This document shows positions 9,201 through 54,741 of a stretch of DNA of 64,000 nucleotides, piece after piece. The DNA is from Bacteroidota bacterium (GTDB lineage Bacteria > Bacteroidota > Bacteroidia > Bacteroidales > F082), in assembly GCA_020444415.1 (NCBI GenBank), contig JAHLLA010000006.1, positions 1 through 64,000 on the forward strand. Direction: 5' to 3'. The translations under genes were made by a program, and so were the position numbers. Within the stretch, counting starts at the first letter, position 1; each line of letters begins with the position of its first letter. Under the pieces are notes generated by a model that worked only from the letters and a program-made list of their open reading frames with translations, was not told where the DNA came from and did no database searches.

Positions 9201-9640
9201 TCGGAATTGTTTCGTTGGCCGGTGTGGTAGTAAACAATGGTATTGTATTAATTGATTATATTGGATTGATCAAACAACGCAAAAGAAAAGAACTGGGTTA
9301 TGAAGAAGGTGCCGACCTGCCAATCGAAATATCCAAAGAATGCATTGTGGAGGGAGGACAAACCCGTTTACGTCCTGTGCTTTTAACAGCCATCACTACC
9401 GTTTTAGGGCTGATGCCTCTGGCGATGGGCTTAAATATAGATATTTTGTCTTTCCTCGAAACATTTAATCCACATATTTATTTTGGTGGTGATAATGTAG
9501 CATTCTGGGGTCCTCTAAGCTGGACGGTTATTTTTGGTTTAAGTTTTGCTACCTTCTTAACCTTAGTGATTGTGCCATCCATGTACCACGTGCTGGTTGT
9601 TGGTAAGATGAAACTTGGGAAAGTTTTTTCAAAAAAATAA
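6218..9640 (+). CDS. RND-family efflux pump, inner membrane permease
   Basis: A 1140-residue AcrB-like proton-driven pump. Landmarks are the first TM segment near residues 22-42, porter domains, the TM4 proton-relay motif GMLVDNAIVVTENI (AcrB has DD where this has DN, as in many Bacteroidota homologues), and the TM10 region with GVVVNNGIVLIDYI. It is about 100 residues longer than classical pumps; the surplus includes extra hydrophobic segments after TM6 (roughly residues 510-575) before the second half begins at LNGWRPYTLIAG. The substrate is unknown; the GVVVNNGIVLIDY motif points to the multidrug-type rather than the heavy-metal CzcA subfamily. It is the last gene of the tolC-tetR-adaptor-pump operon. 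Confidence 0.95.
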   Translation: MEKENKKELIRSFWLSSWALKNKNTVYLIVVAIITFGLYSYITLPKELFPEISIPTVMVQTMYPGNPPVDIENLITRHLEKEIESVKGIKEMTSLSSQDVSNIFVEFQTNVDIKTALQDVKDAVDKVKSDLPADLLDDPMVTDIDFSEFPVININLSGDFNINELKNYAEDLKDEFEAVFEVSKVNINGVTEREVTINLDPFKMSALEVSYGDVENAIFSENISMSGGEIKMGDIKRSIRVIGEFVDPAEMENIIVKSENGNIVYLRDIGYVVYGFAERDSYARLAKKPVVSLQVVKKSGENLLSTIEQVITILNESKESNMIPESLVVTITQDQSETVKMQLSNLENSIILGMIFVIIVLFLFLGTRNSLFVGVAIPMSMFMSFMIMGMIGYKVNMIVLFSLILALGMLVDNAIVVTENIYRYVSKGYSLIEAAKQGTGEVAMPIISSTATTLAAFFPLLFWDSLMGEFMSYLPVTLIIVLASSLFVALVIIPVIFTDFAKKGTNVVIPKAKRSLKIAAILVLVALGFYAIGVNWAGTLMLLFALIGLLDLLFLSRLAIWFQDVALVWMEKTYLQFIQFALNGWRPYTLIAGTFLLMIFTMIFYFGSDPKVVNFPSSAPKYINILAEMPINTDIDVMDSAMHEIEDKVFEVLEPDMDIVKSVLTTVGKGAIGESEGWSGRSGGSNRGLTTVNFVEFEDRAGKDTWRILEALADNLVGQYPGITISVEEQEEGPPAGKPINLEIHGHDFNTLLYLTDTIRSVINRENIPGIEGLKIDLDVGKPELIVHIDREKARRYGLSTAQIGDVIRTALFGKEISDFKDGEDEYKIRMKLDDRYRYNIADLINQRITFRSASSGKIVQVPISAVADFEYSTTFGAITRIDRDRVITIYSNVLPGYNATEINNQLKLIMKDFEFPMGYNYDFTGEQEEQEESMAFLMTAMLIAVVLIAIILVSQFNSFVKPAMIIFTVLLSTIGVFGGLATFKMDFVVIMTGIGIVSLAGVVVNNGIVLIDYIGLIKQRKRKELGYEEGADLPIEISKECIVEGGQTRLRPVLLTAITTVLGLMPLAMGLNIDILSFLETFNPHIYFGGDNVAFWGPLSWTVIFGLSFATFLTLVIVPSMYHVLVVGKMKLGKVFSKK

Positions 9641-9693
9641 GAAATTCAGTTCTAGAAAAAAGGCGCGTATCATGTCTCTTTTTGATTTATGAA

Positions 9694-11418: not shown

Positions 11419-11512
11419 GACATTTAAGATTTAATTATGTGAATAGCAGTTACAGGATCAATTAATAGCGAATTGATGATTGTGCTAAAAGTAATAAAAA
11501 GAAGTACAGCTC

Positions 11513-11541
11513 CAAAAAAAAAGGCCGGATGCCCCGGCCTT
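11513..11541 (-). terminator. Rho-independent terminator of the EF-G-like gene
   Basis: AAGGCCGG (11521-11528) pairs with CCGGCCTT (11534-11541) around a 5-base loop. On the minus strand the stem is followed by a run of about ten T residues. It lies 23 bases beyond the stop codon at 11565. Confidence 0.9.
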
Positions 11542-11564
11542 ATAATCAGTATGTTATTTCAAGT

Positions 11565-13700
11565 TTAATCTTCTTCTTCCAAAGATTCTTCGTACTCTTT
11601 GAGCAGTTTGTCCTGAACATCGCCCGGAACCTGCTGGTAATTGTCGTAGGTTAACTTAAACGTTCCTCTACCTGAAGTAATAGAGCTTAATGAAGTCACA
11701 TATTTACTCATTTCAGCCAATGGAACCTTTGCTTTGATCACCTGGTTTTTACCTTCAGAATCCATCCCCATAATGATGGCACGTCTACCTTGCAAGTCAG
11801 TCATTACCGCTCCCATATTATCCTCAGGAATACTCACTACCAAGTCACAAATTGGTTCCATAATTTTTGGACCTGCATTTTTAAATGCGGTGCTGAAAGC
11901 ATGACGTCCGGCGAGTTTGAAAGAAATCTCATTGGAGTCGACCGGGTGCATTTTTCCGTCATAAATGTAAACAACAATATCGCGTGCGTAAGATCCTGTT
12001 AATGGTCCTTCATTCATGCGCTCCATGACGCCTTTTAAAATGGCGGGTAAAAAACGCTGATCAATGGCACCACCTACGATACAGTTATTGAATACCAGTT
12101 TCCCACCCCAGGGCAGATCGTGCACATCAGTACCACGAACCGGAAAATCTGTTGGATCTTTATAACCTTCAAAGTAAGGTTGGATCATGAGGTGCACCTC
12201 ACCAAACTGTCCTGAACCACCTGATTGCTTTTTATGGCGGTAATCGGCACGGGCCGATTTAGTTATGGTTTCCCTGTATGGAATTTTAGGTGTGAATAAA
12301 TTAATATCGATTTTATGAATAGTATTCAAATACCACTTCACCGTATTCACATGAAATTCACCCTGTGTTTTTAAGAGTAATTGCTTTAATTCGCGTGAAA
12401 ACTCAACGATGATAGTTGGATCGGTTTTGTGCATTTCATTTAAAACGGCACCCAGTTTCTCATCATCAGATGAGTTCTCAGGTTTGATCGCAATTGTGTA
12501 CAATGGCTCAGGTAAATGCAATGCCTCGAAACCGCCTGCTGAGGCTTTTGGGTCCATTAATGAATCACTGGTTCTTACATCTTTCAGCTTGATAGTAACT
12601 GCAATATCACCGGCATAAACAGTATCTACTTTTTCACGGTTTTTACCATTTAATATGAATAATTGTGAAATCCGTTCTTTATTGTCATTTCGTGTATTAA
12701 CAAGGTCCTGTGCTTCTTTAACCGTTCCGCCCATTACTTTAAAAAAGGAGACTTCACCCAGGTGAGGCTCAATAGATGTCTTAAATACAAACAGTGCAGT
12801 TGGGTCAGTGTCTTTACATGAAAATTCTTTCCCTTTTTTGGTCTTTTTTACCGGCATTAAGTCGGGAGAAGGACATGAAAGGGTAATAAACTCTAATATG
12901 CGGTGAATGCCGACACCATGTTTTGCTGAAGAGCACATCACCGGGAAAATGCTTCTGGAAACCATACCCAATCTAACGCCTTCTCTCATTTCGTCCATGG
13001 TAAGCGTGTCGTGTTCGAAATATTTTTCCATGAGCGCTTCATCTCCTTCGGCTGCATTTTCAACCAATGTCAGGTGCAGTTCTTCTGCTTTATCTTTCTC
13101 CGAATCTGGGATATCAGAAATTTCAGGTGCACCACCAACATCTTTAAAGGTAAGCTGCTTCATCAGGATCAGGTCGATGACTGTATTGAATCCTTCGCCT
13201 GCATTAACCGGATACTGAACGATGGTAACCTTTTCACCAAAATAGTCTTTAAGTGATCGGATGGTCTCGTCAAAATTAGCACTATGGTGGTCTAACTGGT
13301 TGATTGAAAAGAATACAGGGGTATTATTGGCAGCAGTTTGACGCCATGCTGTCTCTGTGGTTGCTTCAACACCTGCCTGGCCATTCACCAAAAAAAGTGC
13401 TGTGTCGGCAGCATCAATAGCAGCGATAGTTTCTCCAACGAAATCTGAAAATCCTGGTGTATCTATTATATTGATCTTTACATCATTAAAAATGGTATTC
13501 AATAAGGATGAGTGGACTGAGTGTTGCCTTTCAATTTCGATTTGTTTGTAATCGGAAACAGTATTATGATCTTCAACAGTTCCTTTTCTATTGATTGATT
13601 TTCCTTCAAATAGCATAGACTCAGCCATGGTAGTTTTCCCTGACTTAGCTCCACCAATCAACGCTACATTCCTAATTTCAGTCGTCTTAAAAACCTTCAT
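11565..13700 (-). CDS. Elongation factor G paralogue (EF-G2 type) with altered GTPase motifs
   Basis: A 711-residue protein with the full EF-G layout: G domain, domains II-V, and an acidic tail ending EESLEEED. The GTPase motifs deviate from canonical EF-G. G1 is GGAKSGKTT (residues 16-24) instead of AHIDAGKTT. The switch I ERGITI stretch is ERQHSV. G3 is DTPGF (80-84), with Phe where the catalytic His of DTPGH should be. G4 is NQLD (134-137) instead of NKMD. Bacteroides carries an EF-G2 paralogue reported to support translation without GTP hydrolysis; this looks like the same class (knowledge plus inference). It is monocistronic, with its own promoter and terminator, and not linked to ribosomal protein genes. 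Confidence 0.93.
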   Translation of the reverse strand: MKVFKTTEIRNVALIGGAKSGKTTMAESMLFEGKSINRKGTVEDHNTVSDYKQIEIERQHSVHSSLLNTIFNDVKINIIDTPGFSDFVGETIAAIDAADTALFLVNGQAGVEATTETAWRQTAANNTPVFFSINQLDHHSANFDETIRSLKDYFGEKVTIVQYPVNAGEGFNTVIDLILMKQLTFKDVGGAPEISDIPDSEKDKAEELHLTLVENAAEGDEALMEKYFEHDTLTMDEMREGVRLGMVSRSIFPVMCSSAKHGVGIHRILEFITLSCPSPDLMPVKKTKKGKEFSCKDTDPTALFVFKTSIEPHLGEVSFFKVMGGTVKEAQDLVNTRNDNKERISQLFILNGKNREKVDTVYAGDIAVTIKLKDVRTSDSLMDPKASAGGFEALHLPEPLYTIAIKPENSSDDEKLGAVLNEMHKTDPTIIVEFSRELKQLLLKTQGEFHVNTVKWYLNTIHKIDINLFTPKIPYRETITKSARADYRHKKQSGGSGQFGEVHLMIQPYFEGYKDPTDFPVRGTDVHDLPWGGKLVFNNCIVGGAIDQRFLPAILKGVMERMNEGPLTGSYARDIVVYIYDGKMHPVDSNEISFKLAGRHAFSTAFKNAGPKIMEPICDLVVSIPEDNMGAVMTDLQGRRAIIMGMDSEGKNQVIKAKVPLAEMSKYVTSLSSITSGRGTFKLTYDNYQQVPGDVQDKLLKEYEESLEEED

Positions 13701-13747
13701 AATATTCGTATTCTTAAATGGTTAGCACTTTAAAATTTATAGGTTGG

Positions 13748-13755
13748 CAAATGTA
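13748..13755 (-). promoter_or_regulatory. -10 element (TACATTTG) of the EF-G-like gene
   Basis: The minus strand reads TACATTTG, a full match to TAnnTTTG, 48 bases upstream of the start codon at 13700. No clear -33 TTG is seen at the expected distance. Confidence 0.6.
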
Positions 13756-13800
13756 ATAAAATAAGTTTTTCGCTAGCAGCTATTTAACTATTTATACTGA

Positions 13801-14787
13801 TTAAATTGAACCTAAGGACGCGATTTCCTTTTTGATAAATGCAAATGATGATTCTGGTATTTTAGCCCCATAATTTTCAATAACTTTTGATGCCATAAGT
13901 GATCCGAGATAACCAGCATTCATAATGCCCAGCTTATTGAAGAATCCATATAAAAACCCTGCAGCATATAAATCACCTGCACCTGTTGTGTCAATGGAAT
14001 TTGTTAGCACCGGGGGTATTTTGTAAAGAGCATCTTCAAACATCACTAAAGAACCATTTTTGCCCACTTTTACAATAGCCAGTTCTGTATTCTCTGCTAA
14101 TATCTTCAACGCCTCCATGGGATCTTCTTTTCCGGTAAAAGCCCGTGATTCTTCTTCGTTGGCAAATACAATATCAACATAGCGAGCCACCATTTCTTTA
14201 AGGAAATCCAAGTTATCCTCGACTACATTATAACTGGCCAGGTCAAGGGATATTTTTAAGCCAGCCGTTTTGGCCTTGCGAAGCACACTTTCAAGCAACT
14301 CATGGTTATGTACAATATAGCCTTCTACATGCAATATATCAAAACCGGCAAAGTCATCATCAGTGATATGGTCGCCTGATAGTTCCACCGAAGCGCCAAG
14401 GTAAGTGCCAAAAGTACGTTCTCCATCTTTACTTACGAGGGTGCTGGCAATACCCGAAGCAGTGGCAGATCGCTTTAGTTTGGGGAATATTTTACTTTTT
14501 TCCAGATCGGCAAAAAAGAAGTCTCCGGTTTCATCATTGCCCACTATACCCAAAAAGGCCGTTTCAACGCCCAGTTTTGCCAAACCATGAATGGTGTTGG
14601 CTGCCGAGCCACCCGAAACCATCTCTTTCTCAAGCAGTTCCGCTTTGGTGGCGATCAAGTTTTTAGTCATTTCATCTACCAGGATCATGCTTCCTTTTGG
14701 AAGTTTTAATACATCCAGTAACAGGTCGTCATCTAATTTTATCAGTAAATCAACAAGGGCACTTCCAATGCCTATAACTTTGGCCAT
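13801..14787 (-). CDS. PfkB-family sugar/nucleoside kinase
   Basis: A 328-residue ribokinase-fold kinase close in type to adenosine kinase-like PfkB proteins. Visible motifs are the N-terminal GSALVDLLIKL strand, the substrate-side GGSAANTIHGLAKLG (about residues 58-72), and the C-terminal PfkB signature DTTGAGDLYAAGFLYG, whose Asp is the catalytic base. It phosphorylates a sugar or nucleoside hydroxyl with ATP in the cytoplasm; the substrate cannot be fixed from sequence. Its -10 element (14804-14811) lies just beyond the end of the upstream glycosyltransferase gene, so it can be transcribed independently of that gene. Confidence 0.9.
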   Translation of the reverse strand: MAKVIGIGSALVDLLIKLDDDLLLDVLKLPKGSMILVDEMTKNLIATKAELLEKEMVSGGSAANTIHGLAKLGVETAFLGIVGNDETGDFFFADLEKSKIFPKLKRSATASGIASTLVSKDGERTFGTYLGASVELSGDHITDDDFAGFDILHVEGYIVHNHELLESVLRKAKTAGLKISLDLASYNVVEDNLDFLKEMVARYVDIVFANEEESRAFTGKEDPMEALKILAENTELAIVKVGKNGSLVMFEDALYKIPPVLTNSIDTTGAGDLYAAGFLYGFFNKLGIMNAGYLGSLMASKVIENYGAKIPESSFAFIKKEIASLGSI

Positions 14788-14803
14788 CTATTTATTTTTG
14801 CGG

Positions 14804-14811
14804 CAAAAATA
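14804..14811 (-). promoter_or_regulatory. -10 element (TATTTTTG) of the PfkB kinase gene
   Basis: The minus strand reads TATTTTTG, a full TAnnTTTG match 17 bases before the start codon, squeezed between two genes 29 bases apart. The implied leader is only about 10 bases. Confidence 0.55.
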
Positions 14812-14816
14812 ACGAA

Positions 14817-16472
14817 TTAGTTGTCTTTTGAAAGCGGCGGGTCTTCAAAATCAAATGTGAATAAAACACAGGGTTTGGTTTTTTCAATATTTTGAACCAC
14901 GGAGCCAAGTACGTTAACTTGTTCGTCTTTAATGTGTTCCTCAAAGGCAAAATAGATAACTCCCGGTTTTTTTTCGGAGCTGATATATACTATTTCATCC
15001 CGTGCACGTGAAAGGTAAAAGTGATAGCGGAATAACAAAAAACTCTTTCGGTAATAATGAAAAGGTTCAAACTCCGGATTCCAGTATGAAACCAATGGCT
15101 TACCCTCAGTTTGCTCTGCCACCTCAATAGCCAGGTTCTCTGCTGGTATTTCAGGGGTGTTCAGTTGCCTTGTAGGCAATACAATCACATCAAAGCCTAA
15201 ACGTATTACGAGTAAGGCAATGGCGATCCAGAAAAGTCGCATATGCTTCTGTTTCCAGAATAATATAGTAAGAAGAACCAGTGCTGCCGATACCCAGATA
15301 ACATTAAACAGTATATGTGAAAACTCTTTGGTTACTTCATGGAATAATGCACCGAAAGGAGCGATGCAAGCGGCCATCATCAAAATGCCCAGGATATATT
15401 CAATAACGGTTACAAGTTTATGATTATTTTCTTTTCTATCAAAATACAACCAGGTTAAAACAGTAAAAAATGGCGGTAATAGCATGATAATATAGCGGGC
15501 ATGAACCTCAGGGGACGTCCAGTACACGATAATATTAAAAACCAATATGAGCACATTGTATTTTAGAAATGGATGTGACTTGATTTTTTTATAGTTCCCC
15601 TTCGTAAATAATACCAATATCAGAACAGTCCAGGGAAGAAAATGATAAAACATGGCAAAGGGAAATGTAAAAATGCCCATCAGGGTAGTAAGCCAGCCAA
15701 AACGAATGACTGTTCGCCGGGTGGTTTGATCCAATAATATCCATAAAAGCTCTTCAGGACTGATGTCGTTGGCATTGAAATAGAGCAGGTAATATCCACC
15801 TACGATGATGATGAGGATAAATATGCCAACGAAATGCCGCCAGTTAAAAAGCATCTTAAATTGCTTGTTGGAAATAAAAAGCACCAGCAATGTAATGCCC
15901 AGAAAAACAAGGCTTGGCAGCCCTTTCATCAGATAGGTGATGGAAGTTATAAAGTAAGCTGACACAAATAACAACAGGTATTTCTTCTTTTTGAAGAACA
16001 CATACGATGTCATAAAAAACAAGTAGGTTAGCCAAGAGTACGTAATATCAATAAGGCCGTGCAATGTCTCAAAAAAGAGGATTCTGCCAATGGTCATAAA
16101 AATGAGGGCATTGATGACCCCCATTTTCGTCCCCATTTCCTTTTTCACAAAGAAAAAGATGGTTAAACTGAAAAACAATAGTGAAAGGATCATCGGGAAC
16201 CTTAAACTGGTTTCCGAATAATTGCCAAACATGGTATAGGAGGCGGTAATGAGCCAATTATACAAGGGTGGTTTTTTAAAATAAGGTTCACCTCCAATAG
16301 TGGGTGTAATGTAATCAGTGCTCTTATGCATTTCAAAAGCTACAAGTGCACGAATGGATTCATCTTCGCTGATGGGCTGATCTTCAATGTTGGTAAGAAA
16401 TACCGGGAAAAATAATAACAGCGCTAATACAAGAAAAAAATAGTGGTTTTTAATCAGGTCTTTCTTAATCAT
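14817..16472 (-). CDS. ArnT/GT39-like membrane glycosyltransferase
   Basis: A 551-residue polytopic membrane protein of the GT-C fold. After TM1 (about residues 12-28) comes the large first loop with the catalytic acidic pair (ISEDESIRALVAFEMH) and the PYFKKPPLYNWL motif typical of ArnT/PMT-type enzymes that use a polyprenyl-phosphate sugar. About twelve hydrophobic segments follow, then a soluble C-terminal region (about residues 430-551). Such enzymes move a sugar from a lipid carrier to lipid A or protein on the periplasmic face; the acceptor here is unknown. A palindrome (16578-16601) sits just upstream of its promoter. Confidence 0.88.
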   Translation of the reverse strand: MIKKDLIKNHYFFLVLALLLFFPVFLTNIEDQPISEDESIRALVAFEMHKSTDYITPTIGGEPYFKKPPLYNWLITASYTMFGNYSETSLRFPMILSLLFFSLTIFFFVKKEMGTKMGVINALIFMTIGRILFFETLHGLIDITYSWLTYLFFMTSYVFFKKKKYLLLFVSAYFITSITYLMKGLPSLVFLGITLLVLFISNKQFKMLFNWRHFVGIFILIIIVGGYYLLYFNANDISPEELLWILLDQTTRRTVIRFGWLTTLMGIFTFPFAMFYHFLPWTVLILVLFTKGNYKKIKSHPFLKYNVLILVFNIIVYWTSPEVHARYIIMLLPPFFTVLTWLYFDRKENNHKLVTVIEYILGILMMAACIAPFGALFHEVTKEFSHILFNVIWVSAALVLLTILFWKQKHMRLFWIAIALLVIRLGFDVIVLPTRQLNTPEIPAENLAIEVAEQTEGKPLVSYWNPEFEPFHYYRKSFLLFRYHFYLSRARDEIVYISSEKKPGVIYFAFEEHIKDEQVNVLGSVVQNIEKTKPCVLFTFDFEDPPLSKDN

Positions 16473-16564
16473 TATTATTCATGTTGGGTATAAGTTTAAC
16501 GAGGCACCACAGATATTCAAATATGAAATAATAATTCAGGTCTGCATTGCCGGTTTTTAAATTG

Positions 16565-16572
16565 CAAATGTA
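16565..16572 (-). promoter_or_regulatory. -10 element (TACATTTG) of the glycosyltransferase gene
   Basis: The minus strand reads TACATTTG, 93 bases upstream of the start codon at 16472. The palindrome at 16578-16601 covers the region where the -33 element should be. Confidence 0.55.
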
Positions 16573-16577
16573 AATAT

Positions 16578-16601
16578 ATGAACAGAATTCGTACTGTTCA
16601 T
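16578..16601. promoter_or_regulatory. Perfect 8-base inverted repeat in the glycosyltransferase promoter
   Basis: ATGAACAG (16578-16585) and CTGTTCAT (16594-16601) flank an 8-base spacer. The position, upstream of the minus-strand -10 and between two divergent genes, fits an operator for a dimeric repressor. The nearby TetR protein (16748) is one candidate, although the sites at its own genes have a different sequence. Confidence 0.5.
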
Positions 16602-28323: not shown

Positions 28324-29487
28324 ATGAATACTTTATATCCTAAATTGGTAAGCACGATGGCTATTATTAGCCTGTTGACAATCCAACCTTCAGTATTTTC
28401 TCAGCAGACACTTAGCGAATCTATTTCGTATGACGGTATGCAACGAGAATATATTATATACATTCCAGCCAATTATTCTGGCAATACGGCTTTCCCATTG
28501 GTATTAAATTTCCACGGATATGGAAGCAGTGCCAGCCAGCAAATGTGGTATGGCGATTTCAGGTCCATTGCAGATACTGCAGATTTTCTGATTGTACACC
28601 CGCAAGGAACCTTATTGAATGGTATTTCACACTGGAATGTGGGTGGCTGGACAATTGGAAGTACGGTGGATGACGTTGGATTTATAGAAGCTTTGGTCGA
28701 TTCTCTTTCGGCGGATTATAGCATAGATTCAACAAGGGTATATGCGACGGGCATGTCAAACGGTGGTTTTATGAGTTTCCTTTTGGCGAGTCAACTGAGT
28801 GAAAAAATAGCAGCAATTGGATCGGTGGCCGGTTCCATGACCCCCGAAACATACAATGAAAGCAATCCTTTGCACCCAACACCTGTATTGCAATTCCATG
28901 GTACGGCAGATGGTGTGGTTCCTTATAATGGTGCCATTTGGACGCTGTCAGTTGAAAATGCTTTACAATATTGGGTGGAATATAACCATTGTAATACACT
29001 GCCGTCCGTTTTTCCATTACCGGATATTGATCCGAATGACGGAAGTACGGTGGAACACATTGTGTATTCAGACGGTGATAATGAAGTGAATGTGGAGCAT
29101 TTTAAGGTAATTGGCGGCGAACACACATGGCCCGGAAGCGATTTTGGTGGAGCAGGAACCAACCATGATATTGACGCATCCGAGGAAATTTGGACTTTTT
29201 TTTCCAGGTATGATATATACGGCCTGATGGGCATTACTGATACAGAAACCCCTGATGAAGAGAGTGATAAATGGATTGCATATCCCAATCCTGCCAAAGG
29301 GTTTATGAATATCAAACTTAATTTTGAGCATCCGGTCAAATACGAAATATTTTCGGTACAGGGCAAAATAGTACTCGATGGAAACATTAGCTCAAACCAT
29401 CAGCAAATTGACTTATCATCTTTGTCATCTAATATCTATATCCTTCAAATAGGTAATGAAAGGCAAAAAATATTGATAACAGAATAA
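28324..29487 (+). CDS. Secreted CE1/PHB-depolymerase-like esterase with T9SS sorting domain
   Basis: A 387-residue exported esterase. After a signal peptide ending VFSQ (about residue 27), the alpha/beta-hydrolase part runs to about residue 300: the oxyanion-side LNFHGYGSSA, the nucleophile in GMSNGGFMS (GxSxG, about 144), DGVVPYNG and the catalytic His in GGEHTWPG. This matches the LpqC/feruloyl-esterase/PHB-depolymerase family. The last 75 residues form a type IX sorting domain (IAYPNPAKGFMNIKL, YEIFSVQGKIVLDG, SSNIYILQIGNERQKILITE). It should act on the cell surface or outside, on an ester-bearing polymer or plant ester. The substrate is not determined. Confidence 0.92.
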   Translation: MNTLYPKLVSTMAIISLLTIQPSVFSQQTLSESISYDGMQREYIIYIPANYSGNTAFPLVLNFHGYGSSASQQMWYGDFRSIADTADFLIVHPQGTLLNGISHWNVGGWTIGSTVDDVGFIEALVDSLSADYSIDSTRVYATGMSNGGFMSFLLASQLSEKIAAIGSVAGSMTPETYNESNPLHPTPVLQFHGTADGVVPYNGAIWTLSVENALQYWVEYNHCNTLPSVFPLPDIDPNDGSTVEHIVYSDGDNEVNVEHFKVIGGEHTWPGSDFGGAGTNHDIDASEEIWTFFSRYDIYGLMGITDTETPDEESDKWIAYPNPAKGFMNIKLNFEHPVKYEIFSVQGKIVLDGNISSNHQQIDLSSLSSNIYILQIGNERQKILITE

Positions 29488-44807: not shown

Positions 44808-45263
44808 ATGCTGCTAAAAGGCTCTTTCGAAGATTTTTTTTATATCCTGATAGGAATTATTTGGATCGCTTTCTCCATTTACCAGGGACAAAAGAAGAGA
44901 AAGCAAAAAACGGCCTCCCAACCAACTACCGAAAAGAAAAAAAGCTTTTTCGAAACTTTACTGGATGAAGTCACAGAAAAAAACCAACAGTTTGAGGAAA
45001 CCTACGATGATAACATCGAACCTGAATTAGAAACTATTGAAGCAGTTGAAAATACGTTGGAAGAAAAGAAATTTTCTTATGATGATTACTATGAAGAACG
45101 CAACTATGAAGAAGCTGAAGATGTCCTTATAAAAAATGAACCAATAGCACAACCCATATCCACCCAGAATAAAAAAACCATTCTAAGAAAAAGCAGGAAA
45201 CCAAGATTTGACTTAAAAAAAGCAGTGATCTATTCAGAAATATTAAAGCCCAAATATTTTTAA
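44808..45263 (+). CDS. Single-pass membrane protein with acidic coil, 151 aa
   Basis: I do not recognise a named family. Residues about 8-26 form one TM helix (FEDFFYILIGIIWIAFSIYQG), immediately followed by a strongly basic stretch (KKRKQKKT) that should stay in the cytoplasm. An acidic, probably disordered or coiled region follows (about 55-110, rich in Glu and Asp). The end, RFDLKKAVIYSEILKPKYF, resembles a short C-terminal motif repeatedly seen in small Bacteroidota membrane proteins. Function unknown. It is 105 bases before the receptor gene and could be transcribed with it, though no promoter is clear. Confidence 0.75.
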   Translation: MLLKGSFEDFFYILIGIIWIAFSIYQGQKKRKQKTASQPTTEKKKSFFETLLDEVTEKNQQFEETYDDNIEPELETIEAVENTLEEKKFSYDDYYEERNYEEAEDVLIKNEPIAQPISTQNKKTILRKSRKPRFDLKKAVIYSEILKPKYF

Positions 45264-45367: not shown

Positions 45368-48300
45368 ATGATAAGAAATTTACTCCTCACCATTGGTTTG
45401 ATTCTATTTACCGGTGTTATGCTTTACGCACAGCAAGCTGCGTTGCAAGGAAAAGTGATTGATCAGGATACCAAGGAACCCATTCCTTTCGCCAACATTG
45501 TAGTTGAAAATAAAGGTTCGCAAGTGGGAGGTACTTCATCTGATTTTGATGGTAATTATGTGATTAAACCCTTACCGCCAGGAAAAGTGGATGTAAAAGC
45601 GACTTTTGTTGGGTACAAAACAAAAATGATACAGGGAGTTACCCTTGGAGCTGACAGAATACGTTTTTTAGATATTGAATTGGAAGCTACGGCTGAAACA
45701 CTCGAAACCGTTGAAATTGTCGATTATAAAGTTCCTCTGATCGATAAAGATCAAACAGCAAGTGGTGCCACCGTTACCGCGGAAGAAATTGCCAAAATGC
45801 CACAGAGGAATGCGAATGCCGTTGCCACAACAGTAGGCGGGGTATTTTCGCAGGATGGTGAAAGAGGTAGTGTCCGTGGTGCTCGTTCAGATGCCACAGC
45901 TACTTTTATTGACGGAATACGGGTTATTGGTACTTCAAGTGTGCCACAGTCTGCTATTGAGCAGGTAGACGTTATTCTGGGTGGTGTTCCTGCCCGTTAT
46001 GGTGATGCAACATCGGGTATTATTAATGTAACCACAAAAGGGCCTGCCCGCCAGTTTGGTGCCGGCATCGAACTTGAAACATCTCAATTCCTCGACCCAT
46101 TTGGCTATAACAGGGTTGGATTTAATTTAATGGGGCCATTAATTAAAGGAAAAAACAAGAATAATACATCATTACTCGGGTTTTTTATCGCTGGTGATAT
46201 TGATTTTCAGGAAGATGGAAACCCTTCTCCTATTGGATACGGAACAACTACTGAGGATGCCCTCAGAAACATTGAACAAAATCCGCTCAGGCCATCAGGA
46301 ACAGGATCAGGTACCTATTTAAACGGGGAATTTTTAAGAGCAGATGATTTAAGAAATGTAAAAGCTTCGCCCAACACCTCAAGGCAGAGTTATAACTTTA
46401 TTGGTAACATCAATATAAGAACTACTGAAACGATTAACCTGACCATTGGAGGAAGCTATTTCTATAACCACAGAAATTTGTATAGTTATAATGCCACCAT
46501 GGCAAACTATGATAAGAACACCGTTCAGAACAATACGAATTACAGGGGCTATATCAAATTTAGCCAACGTTTTCCAGGTTCGTCTGAAAGCACTTCAGCT
46601 TTTAAAAACTTTTACTACGCCATTCAATTTGACTATACCAAAGACAAAGGTGAATTTGGTGACCCCAACCACTGGGACAATATATTTGACTATGGGTACA
46701 TCGGAAAATTCACTACTTACAAAACACCAACCTATGAATTTGGAAGCGACACCGTAAATGGTGTATTTTATAACGATGTTTGGATATTAAATTCATGGAA
46801 TTACGATACGCTTGTAACCTGGGATCCGAGAAATACAAATCCATTGGTGGCTGAGTATACCAACAATTATTATACAGTATATGGTGGAAACCCGGAAGGA
46901 CATTACGAAAATTTCGACCAGATTATGTTGGGTGGCGGACTTGTTAACGGAAGTACACCACAGGCCATTTACGGTTTATACCAATCACCGGGTACGAACC
47001 AATCGGGTTATGGTAAATTTGACAACGACCAATATAATATTAGAGTAGACGCTTCTCTAGACATTAAAAATCATGCCCTTAAACTCGGTTTTCAATATGA
47101 GCAACGTGTGAATAGCTTTGCGAATTATGCACCAACAGGACTTTGGAGCCTGATGCGTGGTCTTACAAACTTTCATATAGAAGAATTGGATTTGGATAAC
47201 CCTGAAGTAATCAGTTATGATGGCCATGTAGATACCATCCTTTATCCGAGAAGATATGATGCCAATTCTCAAATGATATTCGATAAGAACCTCAGAATTG
47301 CTATGGGATTACCTGTTGACGGTTTGGATTATATAATTACGGATTCATATGATATTTTAAATAGTACAATTGAATATTACGATGAAAATGGTCTTATGCA
47401 TACGGCAACTGTTGATGCGGATGCACTGGGTATAGCTTTATTCTCACCGGATGAGTTGTGGAACAACGGTTCATCTTATATTAATTATTCAGGATTTGAT
47501 TATACCGGAGAAAAATTAACTGAGCAACCTGCATTTTCTGATTTCTTTACAGAAACGGATGAAAATGGTATGAACACCAGGCCCATTGGCGCATTCAGAC
47601 CCATCTATATGGCTGGTTATATCCAGGATCAGTTTGCCTTTAAGGATCTTATTTTTAATGTGGGCGTCAGGGTTGACCGCTATGATGCAAACCAGCAGGT
47701 GCTGGTTGATCCATTCGTGCTTTATCCAAGATATACGGTTTCCGAAAAAGATGCTTTACCCTTTAATTTTACAACCCCCGATAATATTGGTGGTGATTAT
47801 GTGATTTATGTTGACAATGTTGATAATCCTACTGAGGTAGTTGGATACCGTAATGAATACATTTGGTACAATGCTGAAGGAATCGAAATTCAGGATCCAA
47901 CCTTATTAGACGTGGGATCGGGTATTTCACCGGCATTAGTTGATCCTGACCAGGACAGGGTAAGTGTTGAATCGTTCAAAGATTATGACCCGCAGATCAA
48001 CGTAATGCCAAGGATTTCATTCTCATTCCCTATTTCGGATGAAGCCTTGTTTTTCGCACATTACGATGTGTTAACACAGCGGCCAACAAGTAATAGCTAT
48101 ACAAGTCCGGCCACCTGGTATTATTTTAACTTTACTGGTAACCAGATCAATAATCCTAATCTCGAACCTACAAAAACAATCGATTATGAATTAGGTTTCA
48201 CACAAAGGCTAACGGGTTCATCATCAATTACATTTACAGCCTTTTACCGCGAAATGCGGAATATGCTCCAGACCTATCGTTTCAACGGTGCCTATCCGAA

Positions 48301-49075
48301 AGATTATACGTCGTATAATAATATTGACTTTGGAACTGTAAATGGAATTACCGCAGAGTATGACTTACGAAGAACCAAGAATTTGAGGTTAAGAGCCGCC
48401 TATACATTACAATTTGCAGATGCTACAGGCGCCTCAACAACCACAGCTGCGTCATTGATCGCAGCGGGATTACCCAACCTGAGGTCTACATTCCCTATGC
48501 CATGGGATAGAAGGCACCAATTCAACATTGTAATGGATTACCGTTGGTCTTCAGGTAAGAATTATAATGGACCCAGAACCAGCCGTAAAAACGGTAAAGC
48601 ACCCATCGATTGGTTGAGTAATACCGGGTTTAACTTTACATTGATTGGGGGATCAGGAACGCCCTATACAGCTTCACGTAATGTGACATCTCCTATTTCG
48701 GCCGGTACAAACTTGCTTAAAGGAACATATAGTGGTTCCAGGTTACCCTGGCAATTCAGGTTTGATTTGAGGGTGGATAAGGATATCTATTTCAATTTAA
48801 GAAAACCCAAAGAAGGTAAAGAAGGCAAACAGGCATATTTAAATGTCTACTTCCAGATATTGAACGTGCTGAATACGAAAAATGTGGTTAATGTTTACCC
48901 ATATACAGGTAATCCTGATGATGATGGTTATTTGTCAGCGCCCGAATGGCAACGTCAAATCAACAACCAGTTAGATCCTCAATCATTCAGGGACTTGTAT
49001 AGTGTATATGTGAATAACCCTGGTAATTACAGTACGCCTCGTCAAATCCGTTTTGGTTTAATGTTCAATTTTTAG
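45368..49075 (+). CDS. TonB-dependent outer membrane receptor with CarboxypepD_reg-like N-terminus
   Basis: A 1235-residue outer membrane receptor. The signal peptide ends MLYAQ (about residue 20). Then come a CarboxypepD_reg-like domain (LQGKVIDQDTKEPIPFANIVVENKG...GNYVIKPLPPGKVDVKATFVGY, about 25-105), the plug (SGATVTAEEIAKMPQRNANAVATTVGGV; RGARSDATATFIDGIRV; VDVILGGVPARYGDATSGIINVTTK) and a large beta-barrel ending RFGLMFNF. No TonB box can be proved. It resembles non-SusC TonB receptors, so the substrate may be a peptide, metal chelate or oligosaccharide. I chose ATG 45368 (MIRNLLL) rather than TTG 45308. It heads a three-gene cluster with a large secreted protein and a PorV-like barrel. 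Confidence 0.93.
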   Translation: MIRNLLLTIGLILFTGVMLYAQQAALQGKVIDQDTKEPIPFANIVVENKGSQVGGTSSDFDGNYVIKPLPPGKVDVKATFVGYKTKMIQGVTLGADRIRFLDIELEATAETLETVEIVDYKVPLIDKDQTASGATVTAEEIAKMPQRNANAVATTVGGVFSQDGERGSVRGARSDATATFIDGIRVIGTSSVPQSAIEQVDVILGGVPARYGDATSGIINVTTKGPARQFGAGIELETSQFLDPFGYNRVGFNLMGPLIKGKNKNNTSLLGFFIAGDIDFQEDGNPSPIGYGTTTEDALRNIEQNPLRPSGTGSGTYLNGEFLRADDLRNVKASPNTSRQSYNFIGNINIRTTETINLTIGGSYFYNHRNLYSYNATMANYDKNTVQNNTNYRGYIKFSQRFPGSSESTSAFKNFYYAIQFDYTKDKGEFGDPNHWDNIFDYGYIGKFTTYKTPTYEFGSDTVNGVFYNDVWILNSWNYDTLVTWDPRNTNPLVAEYTNNYYTVYGGNPEGHYENFDQIMLGGGLVNGSTPQAIYGLYQSPGTNQSGYGKFDNDQYNIRVDASLDIKNHALKLGFQYEQRVNSFANYAPTGLWSLMRGLTNFHIEELDLDNPEVISYDGHVDTILYPRRYDANSQMIFDKNLRIAMGLPVDGLDYIITDSYDILNSTIEYYDENGLMHTATVDADALGIALFSPDELWNNGSSYINYSGFDYTGEKLTEQPAFSDFFTETDENGMNTRPIGAFRPIYMAGYIQDQFAFKDLIFNVGVRVDRYDANQQVLVDPFVLYPRYTVSEKDALPFNFTTPDNIGGDYVIYVDNVDNPTEVVGYRNEYIWYNAEGIEIQDPTLLDVGSGISPALVDPDQDRVSVESFKDYDPQINVMPRISFSFPISDEALFFAHYDVLTQRPTSNSYTSPATWYYFNFTGNQINNPNLEPTKTIDYELGFTQRLTGSSSITFTAFYREMRNMLQTYRFNGAYPKDYTSYNNIDFGTVNGITAEYDLRRTKNLRLRAAYTLQFADATGASTTTAASLIAAGLPNLRSTFPMPWDRRHQFNIVMDYRWSSGKNYNGPRTSRKNGKAPIDWLSNTGFNFTLIGGSGTPYTASRNVTSPISAGTNLLKGTYSGSRLPWQFRFDLRVDKDIYFNLRKPKEGKEGKQAYLNVYFQILNVLNTKNVVNVYPYTGNPDDDGYLSAPEWQRQINNQLDPQSFRDLYSVYVNNPGNYSTPRQIRFGLMFNF

Positions 49076-49108
49076 TAGAATTAATTAAGACAAGAAAAAA
49101 AATATATC

Positions 49109-52100
49109 ATGAATAATCTTTCTCGAACTTTAGTGATTCTTTTTATACTGGCCTTTGTGAATAGCCAGGTGTTTGCTGAAGAATACAAATATGAAAATGG
49201 TAAAAAACAAAGTTCCGGGTTGAAAGAAACAGCTGCCGGATGTGCACCAGCCTCAGCATATGATTGGCTTGACATAAATAATGTGAGGGCCAGGATCAAT
49301 ACCGGTGGTGATATGTGGTGGGATTTGCCCGGTGGAACAGGAGCAAAGTACTATGTCCCTAAGGCAGGCTCTGCTACTTCCATGTTTTCAGGAGCGTTAT
49401 GGATTGGAGGTCTGGATATCAACAACCAGCTAAAACTAGCTGCACAAAGATACCGCCAGATAGGGATAGATTATTGGACTGGCCCGTTAACAATAGATGG
49501 AACAGCAGCCATTGACGAAGCTACCTGTGCACAATATGACAGATTTGCTAAGATCACCAGGGCAGAAGTGGATGAGTTTATATCTAATACTGATCCCGAA
49601 ACAGGTTTTTTTATCCCGTCAGAGGATTATACTATTCCGCCATCCATAATGGAATGGCCTGCCCACGGGGATGTATCCAAGAACCAAAGCTATTATTTAG
49701 CTCCTTTTTTCGACAACGATGGAGACGGTGAATACGATCCTTTCGCAGGAGATTATCCATATTACGATATAGAAAATGAGCTTTGTCATACGGATATTCC
49801 GACCATGGAGGAAGAATTCCAGGGGACTATAGATGGAAGTATATTAGCAGACCAGGTCATCAAAGGCGACCAAACCCTCTGGTGGGTATTTAACGACAAA
49901 GGAAATATTCATACAGAAACGGATGGCGCTGCTATTGGCATGGAAATTAGAGCTCAGGCTTTTGCTTTTGCCACGAATGATGAGATCAACAATATGACTT
50001 TTTACAGTTATGAGATCATTAACCGTTCCACTTTTATTTTAACAGAAACCTATTTCTCACCATGGGTTGATACTGACCTCGGCTATGCCAGGGATGATTT
50101 TGTCGGATGTGATGTAGCGAGAGGCTTAGGTTACTGTTACAATGGAAGTGCCGTTGATGGGAGTGGGGAACCGGAATCGTATGGTGGCCCACAGCCACCA
50201 CCTCCAGCGATAGGTGTCGACTTCTTCCAGGGACCTTATATGGATCCAGATGGTTATGATAACCCTGGTTTTGGCGGAGCAGGAGATGGTCCACGTTTTG
50301 TTGACGATCCTTCAACACCAGATATTGATGAAAGATGCCAGATCGTAAGCAAGAATGGTGTCATCTTAAACATGCTAAATGGGGATGGAAGTACTGAACC
50401 AACAAGAGTTGTCTCAGCAGGAATCAACGGTGTTAATTTCGGAAATGGAATCAAGGACGATGAACGTTTCGGAATGCGCCGGTTTGTATATCACAACAAT
50501 AGTAACGGAAATCAAGGAGATCCTGATATTGCACCACAATACTACAATTATCTTAAAGGTATTTGGAAAGACGGAACTAAAATGTTGTACGGCGGAACTG
50601 CTTACGCCGGGGGAGCCGGTACAGTAGGTCCTGAATGTGATTTCATGTTCCCGGGCGATACAGATCCATGTAACTGGGGTACGAGAGGTGTACCACCCAA
50701 CGGCGGCTATACGCAGAATGGATTATACTGGACTGAGGAAACTGGTGATAATGGCGGGCCGAATCCACCTGAAGACAGGCGTTTTATGCAGTCGGCAGGA
50801 CCATTTACCCTGAAGCCGGGTGCCGTAAACTATATTACAGTAGGTATCCCTTGGGCACGTGCTACAGCCGGTAGTCCTTTTAGTTCTGTTGAATTATTGA
50901 GAACGGTCGACGACAAATGTCAGGCTTTATTTGATAATTGTTTTAAAGTTATTGACGGTCCTTCGGCACCGGATTTAACCATCAGGGAATTGGATAAAGA
51001 ATTAATTTTTTATATTTCCAATTCTCCATCGTCAAATAATTACCAGGAAAAATACCAGGAGTTTGATCCGAATATCGTTCAGCCCCTGCCCGGAGGAGAT
51101 GGTGAACGGAGTGACTCCATCTATCGTTTTGAAGGCTATCAGATATTCCAACTGAAAAATGATGAAGTGGGTGTAGAAAGCATTCATGATCCTGATTTGG
51201 TAAGACTCGTAGCACAATTTGATATCGATAATGGTGTAGGTAAATTGGTCAACTATTATTATGACGAATTTATTAACGGTAATGTACCTGTTGTTGAAGT
51301 GGTGGGAGGAGATGATGGTATTCAGCATTCCTTTGTTTTAACGCAGGATGCTTTTGCCACAGGTGATGTCAGGCTTATTAACAATAAAACGTATTATTAC
51401 ATGGCCCTGGCATATGCTTATAACGAATATTTGCCATTTAACCCTGGACCAGACAATTATTTAGGCCAAAAAAGACCTTATTTATCGGGTAGAAAAAATA
51501 TACAAACCTATAGTGCTATGCCGCATTATACCATCAATGGCACGGTAATTAGTGGCAACTATGGCGAAAGCCCTGAAATAACCAGGATAGCCGGTAACGG
51601 AAACGGTGGTCTGTTTCTGGATATGAAGGATGAAACCATTGAAGAAATACTTGCTAAACCTCCCGCCGGGCCTGATAATATCTTCGGCTCACCGGATTAT
51701 CCAATTGCTTACAATCCTGTTTATAAAGAAAATGCGGGACCCTTAAATGTGAAAGTGATTGATCCGTTGAATGTGGTTAGTACAACCTACACCTGGTGGA
51801 TGGATACACTTGAGCATGTTTTGATTCCCAATATTACCAATGATGGTGCTATACAGGGAGATACTGCAAGCAAGTATGTCGGTAAATGGTACCTGCTGGA
51901 TCATACAACGGGTTTCCGATTTGAAACAGACACAACTATTATTGTTGAAGATGAAGTGCTGTTTCCTGAATTAGGAATATCAATTATTGCAAAACAACCT
52001 TATTATCCGGGGCCAATCCCGATTGGAACGGTAGAGGTAGATAATAGTATTAAAACAGCCAGGGAAGTATTGGCTGAAAACAATGGCTTAATTACGGCTT

Positions 52101-53542
52101 CTATTGAATATGCAGATAGTTCACAGCGTTGGCTGAGTGGAGTGTTTGATGAGGACATTCCTGGTTATCCGCTTGATTGGATTCGTTCAGGTACCTATGA
52201 AGATGGTGACAATCCATCACAAAACGACTGGCAAATGGGTACATCTCCTGATAACCCGTGGGATCCAGATGAGGCCTATGAAAAAATTCTCAATGGTACC
52301 TGGACACCTTATTCATTGGCAGCCAGTGGAAATAATTTCTTTGCAGGAGATCCTTTCCAAAGTTTCGTTGGGCCGGCGTATTCTAAAGATTCAAGAACGA
52401 ATTCGCCATTTGATGAAGTATCAAGCGTTGATATCGTCTTTACACCTGATAGATCAAAATGGACGAGGGCTGTTGTACTCGAAATGAGCTATGATTCCGT
52501 GCTAGCACAAGGAAGAGCCAAGAGGTTCCAGTTGCGGCGATCACCTTCAATTGATAAAGACGGAAATTTTGCTACAATAGGTGAAGAGCCTAGTGAAAAC
52601 GAAGAAGCAGCCAATTATATCAGCTCACATGGAATGGGTTGGTTTCCGGGCTACGCGATCAATGTTGAAACAGGAGAAAGATTAAATATCATGTATGGTG
52701 AGGATTCATACCTCGTAGCCGAAAACGGCAGGGATATGCAGTTCAATCCACCTCCCAAGAACCTGGAACTAGATCAGCAATATCAGGATCCGAATATCAT
52801 TAAAGACACTGTTTCATTTACTCCGGTGTTAGGTGGGAAACATTATGTATACATTATGAAAACTTCCATCGTAGATTTAGATATTCTGCCTGGCGAACCC
52901 CTATGGAATTTTCCCGCTTATGATGCAGGAAGAAACAACGTAACCCTTTTGGATTCTATTTTTGATCCTATATTTCCCTGGTTGCCCAGTTACTTTTTTC
53001 AAAATATAATGTATGTGGGTATTCCCATGGGTGTTAAAGGACAGGAGTGGCTCTCAAACGAAGCAAAGATACGGATCAGGGTAAGCAAACCTTATGCGCG
53101 TGGTTACGGATTGAAGGCGCTGGATACAGTATACCCGGGTATGGATGTGAACAACTATTACCCTATGTACCAGTTTTCGATGGAAGGGCTCTCAACACAG
53201 TATAACGATCCACAGAAACTGGAATCCGATTTGGACGATATCAACATCGTACCCAATCCATATTATGCCTATTCATCATATGAAAATAACCCGTTGGATA
53301 ACAGGGTCAAGATTACAAACCTGCCCGAAAAATGTACGGTTACCATTTATAATGTGAGTGGAACAAAGATCAGACAGTTTAAAAAAGACACACCTGAGAC
53401 AACTATTGAGTGGGATTTGACAAACTTTGCCTCAGTTCCTATTTCAGGCGGTGTATATTACATTCATACTAAATCGGAACAAGGGGAGCGGGTATTAAAA
53501 TGGTTCTGTATTATGAGGGTACCTGACTTAAATACATTCTAA
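49109..53542 (+). CDS. Large secreted surface protein, 1477 aa, variant C-terminal sorting-like domain
   Basis: The signal peptide ends QVFAE (about residue 24). The mature protein is rich in Gly, Asp, Asn, Pro and aromatics, and looks extracellular. A calcium-loop-like DNDGDGEYDPFAGDYP lies near residue 200. No catalytic domain is recognisable. The last 100 residues look like a type IX sorting domain of the FlgD-like fold (INIVPNPYYAYSSYE; RVKITNLPEKCTVTIYNVSGTKIRQF; GGVYYIHTKS), but the terminus is GERVLKWFCIMRVPDLNTF rather than the usual VxKLVK-type ending. The gene follows the TonB receptor by 33 bases and precedes the PorV-like gene. I infer a surface protein working with the receptor. 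Confidence 0.85.
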   Translation: MNNLSRTLVILFILAFVNSQVFAEEYKYENGKKQSSGLKETAAGCAPASAYDWLDINNVRARINTGGDMWWDLPGGTGAKYYVPKAGSATSMFSGALWIGGLDINNQLKLAAQRYRQIGIDYWTGPLTIDGTAAIDEATCAQYDRFAKITRAEVDEFISNTDPETGFFIPSEDYTIPPSIMEWPAHGDVSKNQSYYLAPFFDNDGDGEYDPFAGDYPYYDIENELCHTDIPTMEEEFQGTIDGSILADQVIKGDQTLWWVFNDKGNIHTETDGAAIGMEIRAQAFAFATNDEINNMTFYSYEIINRSTFILTETYFSPWVDTDLGYARDDFVGCDVARGLGYCYNGSAVDGSGEPESYGGPQPPPPAIGVDFFQGPYMDPDGYDNPGFGGAGDGPRFVDDPSTPDIDERCQIVSKNGVILNMLNGDGSTEPTRVVSAGINGVNFGNGIKDDERFGMRRFVYHNNSNGNQGDPDIAPQYYNYLKGIWKDGTKMLYGGTAYAGGAGTVGPECDFMFPGDTDPCNWGTRGVPPNGGYTQNGLYWTEETGDNGGPNPPEDRRFMQSAGPFTLKPGAVNYITVGIPWARATAGSPFSSVELLRTVDDKCQALFDNCFKVIDGPSAPDLTIRELDKELIFYISNSPSSNNYQEKYQEFDPNIVQPLPGGDGERSDSIYRFEGYQIFQLKNDEVGVESIHDPDLVRLVAQFDIDNGVGKLVNYYYDEFINGNVPVVEVVGGDDGIQHSFVLTQDAFATGDVRLINNKTYYYMALAYAYNEYLPFNPGPDNYLGQKRPYLSGRKNIQTYSAMPHYTINGTVISGNYGESPEITRIAGNGNGGLFLDMKDETIEEILAKPPAGPDNIFGSPDYPIAYNPVYKENAGPLNVKVIDPLNVVSTTYTWWMDTLEHVLIPNITNDGAIQGDTASKYVGKWYLLDHTTGFRFETDTTIIVEDEVLFPELGISIIAKQPYYPGPIPIGTVEVDNSIKTAREVLAENNGLITASIEYADSSQRWLSGVFDEDIPGYPLDWIRSGTYEDGDNPSQNDWQMGTSPDNPWDPDEAYEKILNGTWTPYSLAASGNNFFAGDPFQSFVGPAYSKDSRTNSPFDEVSSVDIVFTPDRSKWTRAVVLEMSYDSVLAQGRAKRFQLRRSPSIDKDGNFATIGEEPSENEEAANYISSHGMGWFPGYAINVETGERLNIMYGEDSYLVAENGRDMQFNPPPKNLELDQQYQDPNIIKDTVSFTPVLGGKHYVYIMKTSIVDLDILPGEPLWNFPAYDAGRNNVTLLDSIFDPIFPWLPSYFFQNIMYVGIPMGVKGQEWLSNEAKIRIRVSKPYARGYGLKALDTVYPGMDVNNYYPMYQFSMEGLSTQYNDPQKLESDLDDINIVPNPYYAYSSYENNPLDNRVKITNLPEKCTVTIYNVSGTKIRQFKKDTPETTIEWDLTNFASVPISGGVYYIHTKSEQGERVLKWFCIMRVPDLNTF

Positions 53543-53590
53543 CCAATAAAAATGACAAATAAGAAAATAAGAAATAAACCATATTTGATC

Positions 53591-54658
53591 ATGAAACATT
53601 ATTATAAATATCTAAGCATTGTTTTGATCACAGCATTCGTATTACCTTTAACGTTATCACTACATGCTGGTAATAAAGACAGATCAGGCCAGGCCGGGGC
53701 ATCAGAATTGCTCATTAATCCATGGGCCAGAAGTAACGGCTGGGGCGGTGCAAATATGGCAAAAGTAAATGGCCTGGAGGCCATGTGGGCCAATGTTGCG
53801 GGAACCGCAAAAATCAGTGGAACCCAGGTAATACTGTCTTATACTGATTATCTGAGAGGAACCGGAACCAGTATCGCTGCTTTTGGTTTAACAACTAAAA
53901 TTGGTGATGCAGGTGCCCTCGGAATCCAGGTGGTTTCTATGTCGTTTGGTGAAATTGAGATCACAACACCAGACAGCCCGGAAGGTGGGCTGGGGGTCTA
54001 TAAACCAAACCTGATGAATGTTGCAATATCATACGGTAAAGCATTTTCAAATAGTATTTATGGGGGAATCGTGATTAAAGGTGTATCGGAATCTATATCC
54101 GACGTGACCGCTTTTGGCATTGCGATAGATGCAGGAATTCAATATGTTACAGGAGCGAAAGAGCAGATAGCATTTGGGATAGCGTTGAAAAATGTAGGAC
54201 CTAAAATGAAGTTCTCAGGTGATGGTTTATCTATAAAAACATTCATTCCGGGACAGGACAATGCATTTACACTTGAGCAACGTTCGCAAGCTTTTAACTT
54301 GCCCACCCAGTTGCAAATTGGTGCTGCTTACGATTTTCTGATGCCTAAAGATTACCGCATTACCCTGGCAGGAAACTTCGTATCTAATTCATTTACGAGA
54401 GATCAATTTTCTCTCGGACTGGAATTTAGTTTGAAAGACTACTTTATGTTGCGTGGAGCCTATACTTATGAAAATGGTATGTTCGAAGATATTACCAGTG
54501 ATGAAAATACAAATATCAACAATGGATTGAGCGCTGGTATTAGTGTCGCTGTTCCTCTGAATAAAGAAAAAGGATCCTTCATTGGAATTGATTACGCATT
54601 CAGAGAAACCGCCTCGTTTAATCACAATCACACACTGGGAATTATTTTTAATTTCTGA
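53591..54658 (+). CDS. PorV/PorQ-family outer membrane protein
   Basis: A 355-residue barrel protein from ATG 53591 (MKHYYKYLS); the frame is also open from 53552. The signal peptide ends SLHAG. The mature start ASELLINPWARSNGWGGANMAKVNGLEAMWANVAGTAKI is the PorV/PorQ hallmark, related to FadL-type barrels, and the end HNHTLGIIFNF is typical of the outer membrane. PorV itself shuttles T9SS cargo to the attachment complex; PorV-like paralogues are often encoded next to their clients. Here it follows the large secreted protein, so a dedicated export or attachment role for that protein is plausible (inference). Confidence 0.9.
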   Translation: MKHYYKYLSIVLITAFVLPLTLSLHAGNKDRSGQAGASELLINPWARSNGWGGANMAKVNGLEAMWANVAGTAKISGTQVILSYTDYLRGTGTSIAAFGLTTKIGDAGALGIQVVSMSFGEIEITTPDSPEGGLGVYKPNLMNVAISYGKAFSNSIYGGIVIKGVSESISDVTAFGIAIDAGIQYVTGAKEQIAFGIALKNVGPKMKFSGDGLSIKTFIPGQDNAFTLEQRSQAFNLPTQLQIGAAYDFLMPKDYRITLAGNFVSNSFTRDQFSLGLEFSLKDYFMLRGAYTYENGMFEDITSDENTNINNGLSAGISVAVPLNKEKGSFIGIDYAFRETASFNHNHTLGIIFNF

Positions 54659-54695: not shown

Positions 54696-54710
54696 CGGGC
54701 ATAATTACAA

Positions 54711-54741
54711 GGGACCCTTAATTTATTTTAGGGGTCTTTTT
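54711..54741 (+). terminator. Terminator-like hairpin within the greA leader
   Basis: GACCCTTAA (54713-54721) pairs with TTAGGGGTC (54728-54736) with one G-T wobble around a 6-base loop, followed by TTTTTCTC. It lies after the greA promoter and before the start codon. It could end transcripts of the upstream receptor cluster, attenuate greA, or release a short leader RNA of about 40 bases. Confidence 0.65.

Follow-up and report, generated by a model that had tools for sequence, protein, structure and literature searches.

A conserved trio of a TonB-dependent receptor, a T9SS-type surface protein and a PorV-family barrel in Bacteroidota, a candidate surface uptake system

Two pairs of proteins are known in which a surface protein is held by its partner outer membrane barrel, namely PorU with PorV and PorZ with PorQ (PMC7463736, PMC10202324). 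The sorting domains of PorZ and PorU stay uncleaved on PorQ and PorV (PMC10202324, PMC8545088), and for PorZ both its retention by PorQ and the absence of cleavage are described (PMC8545088, PMC7463736, PMC10202324). Another arrangement has been described for cargo with a type B sorting domain, where the cargo gene is directly followed by its own barrel gene of the PorP-SprF type (PMC12618676). The SusCD and RagAB systems, in turn, combine a TonB-dependent receptor (TBDR) bearing an N-terminal CarboxypepD_reg domain with an adjacent gene for a large surface protein. Here, we describe a locus that shares features with each of these systems. It lies in the window, by which we mean the whole stretch of 64,000 nucleotides that was analysed (contig JAHLLA010000006.1, positions 1 to 64,000, of the Bacteroidota assembly GCA_020444415.1). 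Between positions 45368 and 54658 on the + strand, three open, co-directional ORFs stand in tandem, encoding a TBDR of 1235 aa (45368..49075), a secreted surface protein of 1477 aa that we refer to as BIG (49109..53542), and an outer membrane barrel of the PorV/PorQ family (53552..54658). The gaps between them are 33 nt (receptor to BIG) and 9 nt (BIG to barrel), in keeping with the tight spacing noted in a preliminary description of this DNA. The barrel gene has a second in-frame ATG at 53591, which gives a product of 355 aa, equal to the median for its relatives; this is the likelier start, and the true gap between BIG and the barrel may therefore be 48 nt.

The surroundings of the triad were also inspected. 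A small gene upstream of the receptor, U1 (44808..45263, + strand), had no Pfam match over the cut-off; it is retained in many close loci and is absent from the make-up of the triad elsewhere. On the 3' side of the barrel gene are genes that we take, by eye, to be greA-like and HIT-like, and these neighbours say nothing about the ligand. The intergenic stretch from the barrel gene to the greA-like gene contains a terminator-like hairpin (54709..54740, + strand), although the pattern scan that found it returned 13 sites against 8.5 expected in shuffles and is not proof of a terminator, and a promoter scan gave only background levels. Further downstream, a gene for a peptidase of family C69 (58133-59731 of the window) is retained in many close loci as well.

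Our analysis showed that the triad recurs across the phylum. A scan of one genome per species, covering 84,980 species, confirmed at least 577 relatives of BIG, and the best 80 loci were kept. In 76 of these 80, the order and the strand of the three genes are unchanged, and the other four each lose one neighbour to a contig end (L046, L062, L076, L077); the greA-like gene is present on the 3' side in all 78 close loci that reach past BIG. Within the window's own family, BIG was matched in 55 of 60 genomes and 14 of 15 genera, one of the matches being partial and paralogue-like (G423), and it is absent from all five genomes of the genus g181 (G393, G408, G421, G440, G446). As BIG is near-universal in the rest of the family, g181 provides a natural absence for comparison. 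A profile built from 25 BIG sequences matched 176 of 392 genomes at E up to 1e-10, a count that includes some genomes that are not proven to hold a triad (e.g. region L154). Three of 12 other families sampled in the window's class have BIG (f8, f9, f10), and the remaining nine lack it, most of them keeping SprA. Among 40 distant regions, from 39 genomes and 28 families, receptor, BIG and barrel are adjacent in one order and on one strand in 37; because these regions were hand-picked from the stronger profile matches, one or a few per family, this proportion does not describe a random sample. Leaving aside the window's own family, 26 of those sampled keep the order. The three exceptions are two pieces of one contig-split gene (L139, L140) and region L154 (G267, 5949-16594), where four BIG-like proteins, each with a type A end of the ordinary kind, are arrayed in tandem and no receptor or PorV-type barrel was found. 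A second copy of the triad is present in L153. The synteny search that the preliminary description had proposed thus shows an arrangement shared well beyond this genome, and with 76 of 80 close and 37 of 40 distant regions in agreement, a chance neighbourhood of the three genes is rejected. We consider it almost certain that the triad acts as one functional unit.

Some distant triads have additional genes directly downstream. The clustering of downstream neighbours consisted mostly of shadow ORFs, and only separately checked clusters are reported here. In six distant loci (L132, L146, L147, L150, L151, L152), a family of genes encoding 697-755 aa starts within about 150 nt 3' of the barrel gene, the member in L132 having TPR repeats and multihaem cytochrome domains. 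In six other loci (L119, L129, L130, L135, L136, L145), a different gene family lies 4-141 nt 3' of the barrel gene, and its member in L145 has a GWxTD domain.

The distribution of BIG is tied to that of the T9SS. SprA was found in 319 of the 392 genomes, including all 176 that are BIG-positive, and none of the 73 SprA-negative genomes has BIG; 143 genomes have SprA but not BIG. The association (Fisher p 2e-22) is overstated because the genomes are related, the co-occurrence following phylogeny so that the 176 genomes are not independent. Near its C-terminus, BIG has a T9SS-type sorting domain with an extended tail (residues 1367-1477; 53207..53539), identified by profile and structure matches. 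The domain scored 21.6 bits against TIGR04183 when searched as a protein (cut-off 23), 26.9 bits in a six-frame search of the genome, and 22.8 bits against the Pfam model (cut-off 27), and its assignment to type A is borderline. For the predicted fold, the best PDB match is the sorting domain of PorZ (Foldseek E 1.6e-5; VIA-align Z 10.7 over 90 residues at 2.5 A), followed by PorU (Z 8.9) and the C-terminal domain of mirolase (Z 8.1). The NCBIfam model for PorZ also matches this part of BIG (E 2.5e-6), far below that model's cut-off. Taken with the strict co-occurrence, the sorting domain suggests that BIG would cross the outer membrane through SprA, and we regard export by the T9SS as very likely. 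Two further sorting-domain matches occur in the window, at 9697-9933 (- strand) and 29278-29472 (+ strand), and the genome as a whole has 134 TIGR04183 matches in 3.1 Mb, with clusters of eight sorting-domain proteins at G000:C15:50000-68500 (L168) and six at G000:C26:81000-95000 (L170).

BIG ends in GERVLKWFCIMRVPDLNTF, and its last 14 residues, KWFCIMRVPDLNTF (53498..53539), form a tail that was delimited by comparing sorting domains and aligning relatives. The preliminary description had remarked on this unusual ending and suggested looking for it in other genomes, without noticing that it prolongs the sorting domain in a conserved way. All 79 close relatives compared have K(-14), R(-8), D(-5) and F(-1), a constancy beyond chance; L077, with a contig that stops early, was left out of the 80. 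Conservation is weaker in the 38 distant BIG proteins, a set restricted to matches above 120 bits (which removed L154 and a fragment in L149) and without L139 and L140: 37 of them have K(-14), and position -1 is occupied by F in 22, Y in nine, L in five and I in two. We examined 57 of the 134 sorting-domain matches in the window's genome, measuring how far the conserved G-x-Y motif lies from the C-terminus. This distance is 21-27 residues in 53 of them and 30 in BIG; for two others a second G-x-Y was taken, giving 12, and one has no G-x-Y motif. BIG is the only one of the 57 with the extra VPDLNTF. The tail comes after the final strand of the domain, and its last eight residues have a mean pLDDT of 59 when modelled in isolation, as would be expected of a segment that needs a partner. 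Published models place the contacts of PorV on motifs B, D and E of sorting domains (PMC11969387, PMC10202324), and we infer that the tail begins just past motif E. As a general mark of barrel-linked cargo the tail was rejected, since it is missing from the ends of several barrel-linked sorting domains of other classes, and it is thus no general rule of PorV-type pairing.

The barrel belongs to the PorV/PorQ family NF033709 (130.6 bits, cut-off 90), and it is neither a true PorV (NF033710, 63.2 bits, cut-off 250) nor a PorQ (NF033711, 71.9 bits, cut-off 220), both identities being rejected by these scores and by its position in a separate clade. No solved structure was matched when searched by sequence with the barrel or with the receptor. 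The module barrels form one clade of 46 sequences, 37 of them from the distant loci and the remaining nine from the window together with close relatives, with a support of 100/100, apart from 26 other PorV-family proteins that include the PorU-linked true PorV; this tree omits three family members longer than 500 aa and four rows representing module copies. The true PorV of the window's genome is encoded elsewhere, preceded by a PorU-like gene (L083), and falls in another clade. In contrast to the type B pairs, the best match of the triad barrel is to the PorV family rather than PorP_SprF (130.6 vs 25.6 bits), and the sorting domain of its neighbour is type A-like. The closest arrangement outside the module is on the Rhodothermus marinus plasmid pRMAR01, where a receptor, a large 'hypothetical' protein and a PorV/PorQ-family gene stand in the same order. 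However, this barrel falls outside the module clade, the receptor groups with other PorV-linked receptors, and the match covers only 8% of BIG, at the C-terminus; the barrel tree rejects the plasmid triad as an orthologue, and we class it as paralogous. Other classes of the phylum have up to 21 PorV-family matches per genome (G148, G030, G172 and others), so that a barrel beside its cargo is common there, and many of these genes directly follow a sorting-domain protein or a TonB receptor (loci L196-L216), which suggests that cognate barrel pairs are numerous.

Like PorZ with PorQ and PorU with PorV, the triad combines a surface protein, a type A-like sorting domain that is closest to that of PorZ, and a PorV-family barrel as its proposed holder. 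It differs from both pairs in that BIG, outside its sorting domain, matches neither the PorZ nor the PorU family, its tail runs past the usual end, the genes are linked to a TonB receptor, and the barrel has its own clade. The preliminary description had proposed the barrel as an export or attachment partner dedicated to BIG, and this idea is well supported by analogy with the known precedents, by the separate clade, and by co-inheritance of barrel, BIG and receptor throughout the phylum. We consider it probable that the barrel is a permanent anchor. A simpler explanation would be that it acts only as an export shuttle and that the receptor is merely co-transcribed, as PorV-family proteins are known as shuttles (PMC12618676), the fold of the sorting domain is of type A and just over the cut-off in the six-frame genome search, and the genome has a true PorV with its preceding PorU-like gene. 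That same PorV would make a separate clade of barrels needless, however, and a mere shuttle would leave the strict conservation of residues that are to be discarded (79/79), and the resemblance to the uncleaved domain of PorZ, hard to account for. We therefore regard the shuttle-only explanation as unlikely.

The remainder of BIG gives some indication of what an anchored protein might do. It is encoded by a single gene in the window's genome, and its signal peptide lacks a lipobox, judged by eye, so it is not a lipoprotein of the SusD type. Apart from the sorting domain, Pfam found no family in BIG, in agreement with the remark in the preliminary description that it has no known catalytic domain, and searches of Pfam, NCBIfam and PDB sequences rejected SusD and known catalytic families. 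In 63 members, the N-terminal part had no Pfam domain, apart from weak fn3 matches in two members and a PRC domain in one. The model of residues 40-790 is predicted with confidence (pLDDT 85.1, pTM 0.85), and while Foldseek reached an E of 1e-3 only, realignment with VIA-align gave 50 listed matches that are all glycan-active enzymes aligned over one domain (Z 14.5-19.1, 230-271 residues, 3.0-3.9 A), the top alignment among those listed having Z 19.1 over 259 residues at 3.3 A. This domain, which we take to be the super-sandwich of GH15, GH65, GH94 and GH116 enzymes, a galactose-mutarotase-like fold that the preliminary description did not recognise, is predicted in BIG at residues about 40-614 (49226..50950). 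The catalytic alpha/alpha-6 barrel of those enzymes is absent from both BIG models, the rest being beta-rich with short helices only (DSSP). The second model, of residues 780-1477, has a pLDDT of 89.6, and its confident fold at residues about 820-1366 had no match among those listed. The predicted super-sandwich suggests a glycan or glycoconjugate as ligand, although such a fold need not imply glycan binding, and we propose a glycan tentatively, at rather less than an even chance. The region also contains an acidic motif of calcium type, D-x-D-x-G-x3-D-D-x2-G-x-D, at residues 321-335 (DTDLGYARDDFVGCD; 50069..50113, placed from the translation). It accounts for five of the 18 columns that are invariant in 63 BIG sequences (D321, D323, G325, D330 and D335), which agrees with the calcium-loop-like motif seen earlier. 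Proteins of about 500-700 aa that match only BIG residues of about 48-580 occur in genomes of the same family (e.g. G438:C7:40231-41592, G405:C37:90415-94013), sometimes in tandem, and look like stand-alone paralogues of this region.

A protein with a PorZ-like sorting domain might also serve the envelope rather than nutrition, in which case BIG would bind a surface polysaccharide of the cell itself, much as PorZ does A-LPS, and the receptor would signal or recycle envelope material. This would fit a single-copy gene that is 54-80% identical to 24 chosen relatives, occurs in 55 of 60 genomes of the family and keeps the same housekeeping-type neighbours in close loci. Yet BIG is missing from g181 and from nine of 12 other families of the class, most of which have SprA, so it is not essential to the T9SS or the envelope in general, and the second copy in L153 is also at odds with such a role. 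We think envelope maintenance improbable, slightly more so than the shuttle.

The receptor is over the Pfam cut-offs for the CarboxypepD_reg, Plug (37.8 bits, cut-off 23.9) and TonB barrel (44.7 bits, cut-off 27) domains, and also has a signal peptide and a TonB-box-like strand, both recognised by eye. The strand is kept along with the plug in nearly all aligned receptor rows. The receptor is present in a single copy, and its nearest relative in the genome is 31% identical over the N-terminal part only. In a quick tree with long branches, the module receptors group together and eight further receptors of that genome fall outside, the two 'other' rows inside the module clade being the second-copy receptor of L153 and a tandem duplicate in L151. 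None of its NCBIfam matches is to a SusC-named model, which that library presumably contains. The locus thus resembles SusCD and RagAB in its receptor and adjacent large surface protein; unlike SusD, BIG has no SusD family match at E up to 1 and no lipobox cysteine at the end of the signal peptide (by eye), and it bears a T9SS signal, and the third gene encodes a PorV-family barrel. It could be argued that the receptor is an unrelated neighbour and that BIG, being large, beta-rich and surface-destined with calcium-type motifs, serves together with its anchor as an adhesin or in a surface layer. The receptor, however, opens every one of the 37 intact distant triads and is co-inherited with the others, and sequence conservation this strong would be unusual among adhesins, making an adhesin very improbable. 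The preliminary description had left uptake and adhesion side by side; we favour uptake since the receptor keeps its plug and TonB-box-like strand and is co-inherited with BIG, and consider uptake together with the receptor rather likely.

Together, these observations lead us to propose a TonB uptake complex of SusCD-like design, in which the T9SS delivers the surface subunit and a dedicated PorV-type barrel holds it, a reading to which we give an even chance. The signal peptide would take BIG across the inner membrane, and after passage through SprA the adjacent barrel would collect BIG and then retain it. If the barrel keeps BIG, the sorting domain would stay uncleaved and serve as the anchor, as for PorZ on PorQ and PorU on PorV, and the conserved tail past the last strand may be a pairing tag for the barrel. 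BIG would then cover the receptor in the manner of SusD on SusC, acting as lid or capture subunit, and pass the ligand, possibly a glycan, on to it. In its fullest form, the proposal is that of a third anchored PorV-type pair, found phylum-wide, with a non-lipidated, T9SS-delivered subunit of a TonB transporter that stays uncleaved since its own barrel reads the K-14/R-8/D-5/F-1 tag, which is plausible but falls somewhat short of an even chance. A link to the newly described BAM complex of Bacteroidota was rejected, as the subunits named in the accessible part of that description are others and no such triad appears there. No study of the triad was found in the literature searched, which left out preprints and covered subscription papers thinly, and within that scope the system is, as first described, uncharacterised; its parts are of known kinds, and as far as this literature shows, their combination, its breadth and the tail are undescribed.

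The conservation of the trio's order across families, with BIG mostly unannotated, suggests that what the trio does is important in much of the phylum. If BIG does take part in uptake, TonB importers can use partners delivered by the T9SS instead of lipoproteins. If the fullest form of the proposal holds, the triad would be an analogue of SusCD made from T9SS parts, and it would be the tail, rather than the sorting domain alone, that decides between processing by the sortase and permanent anchoring.
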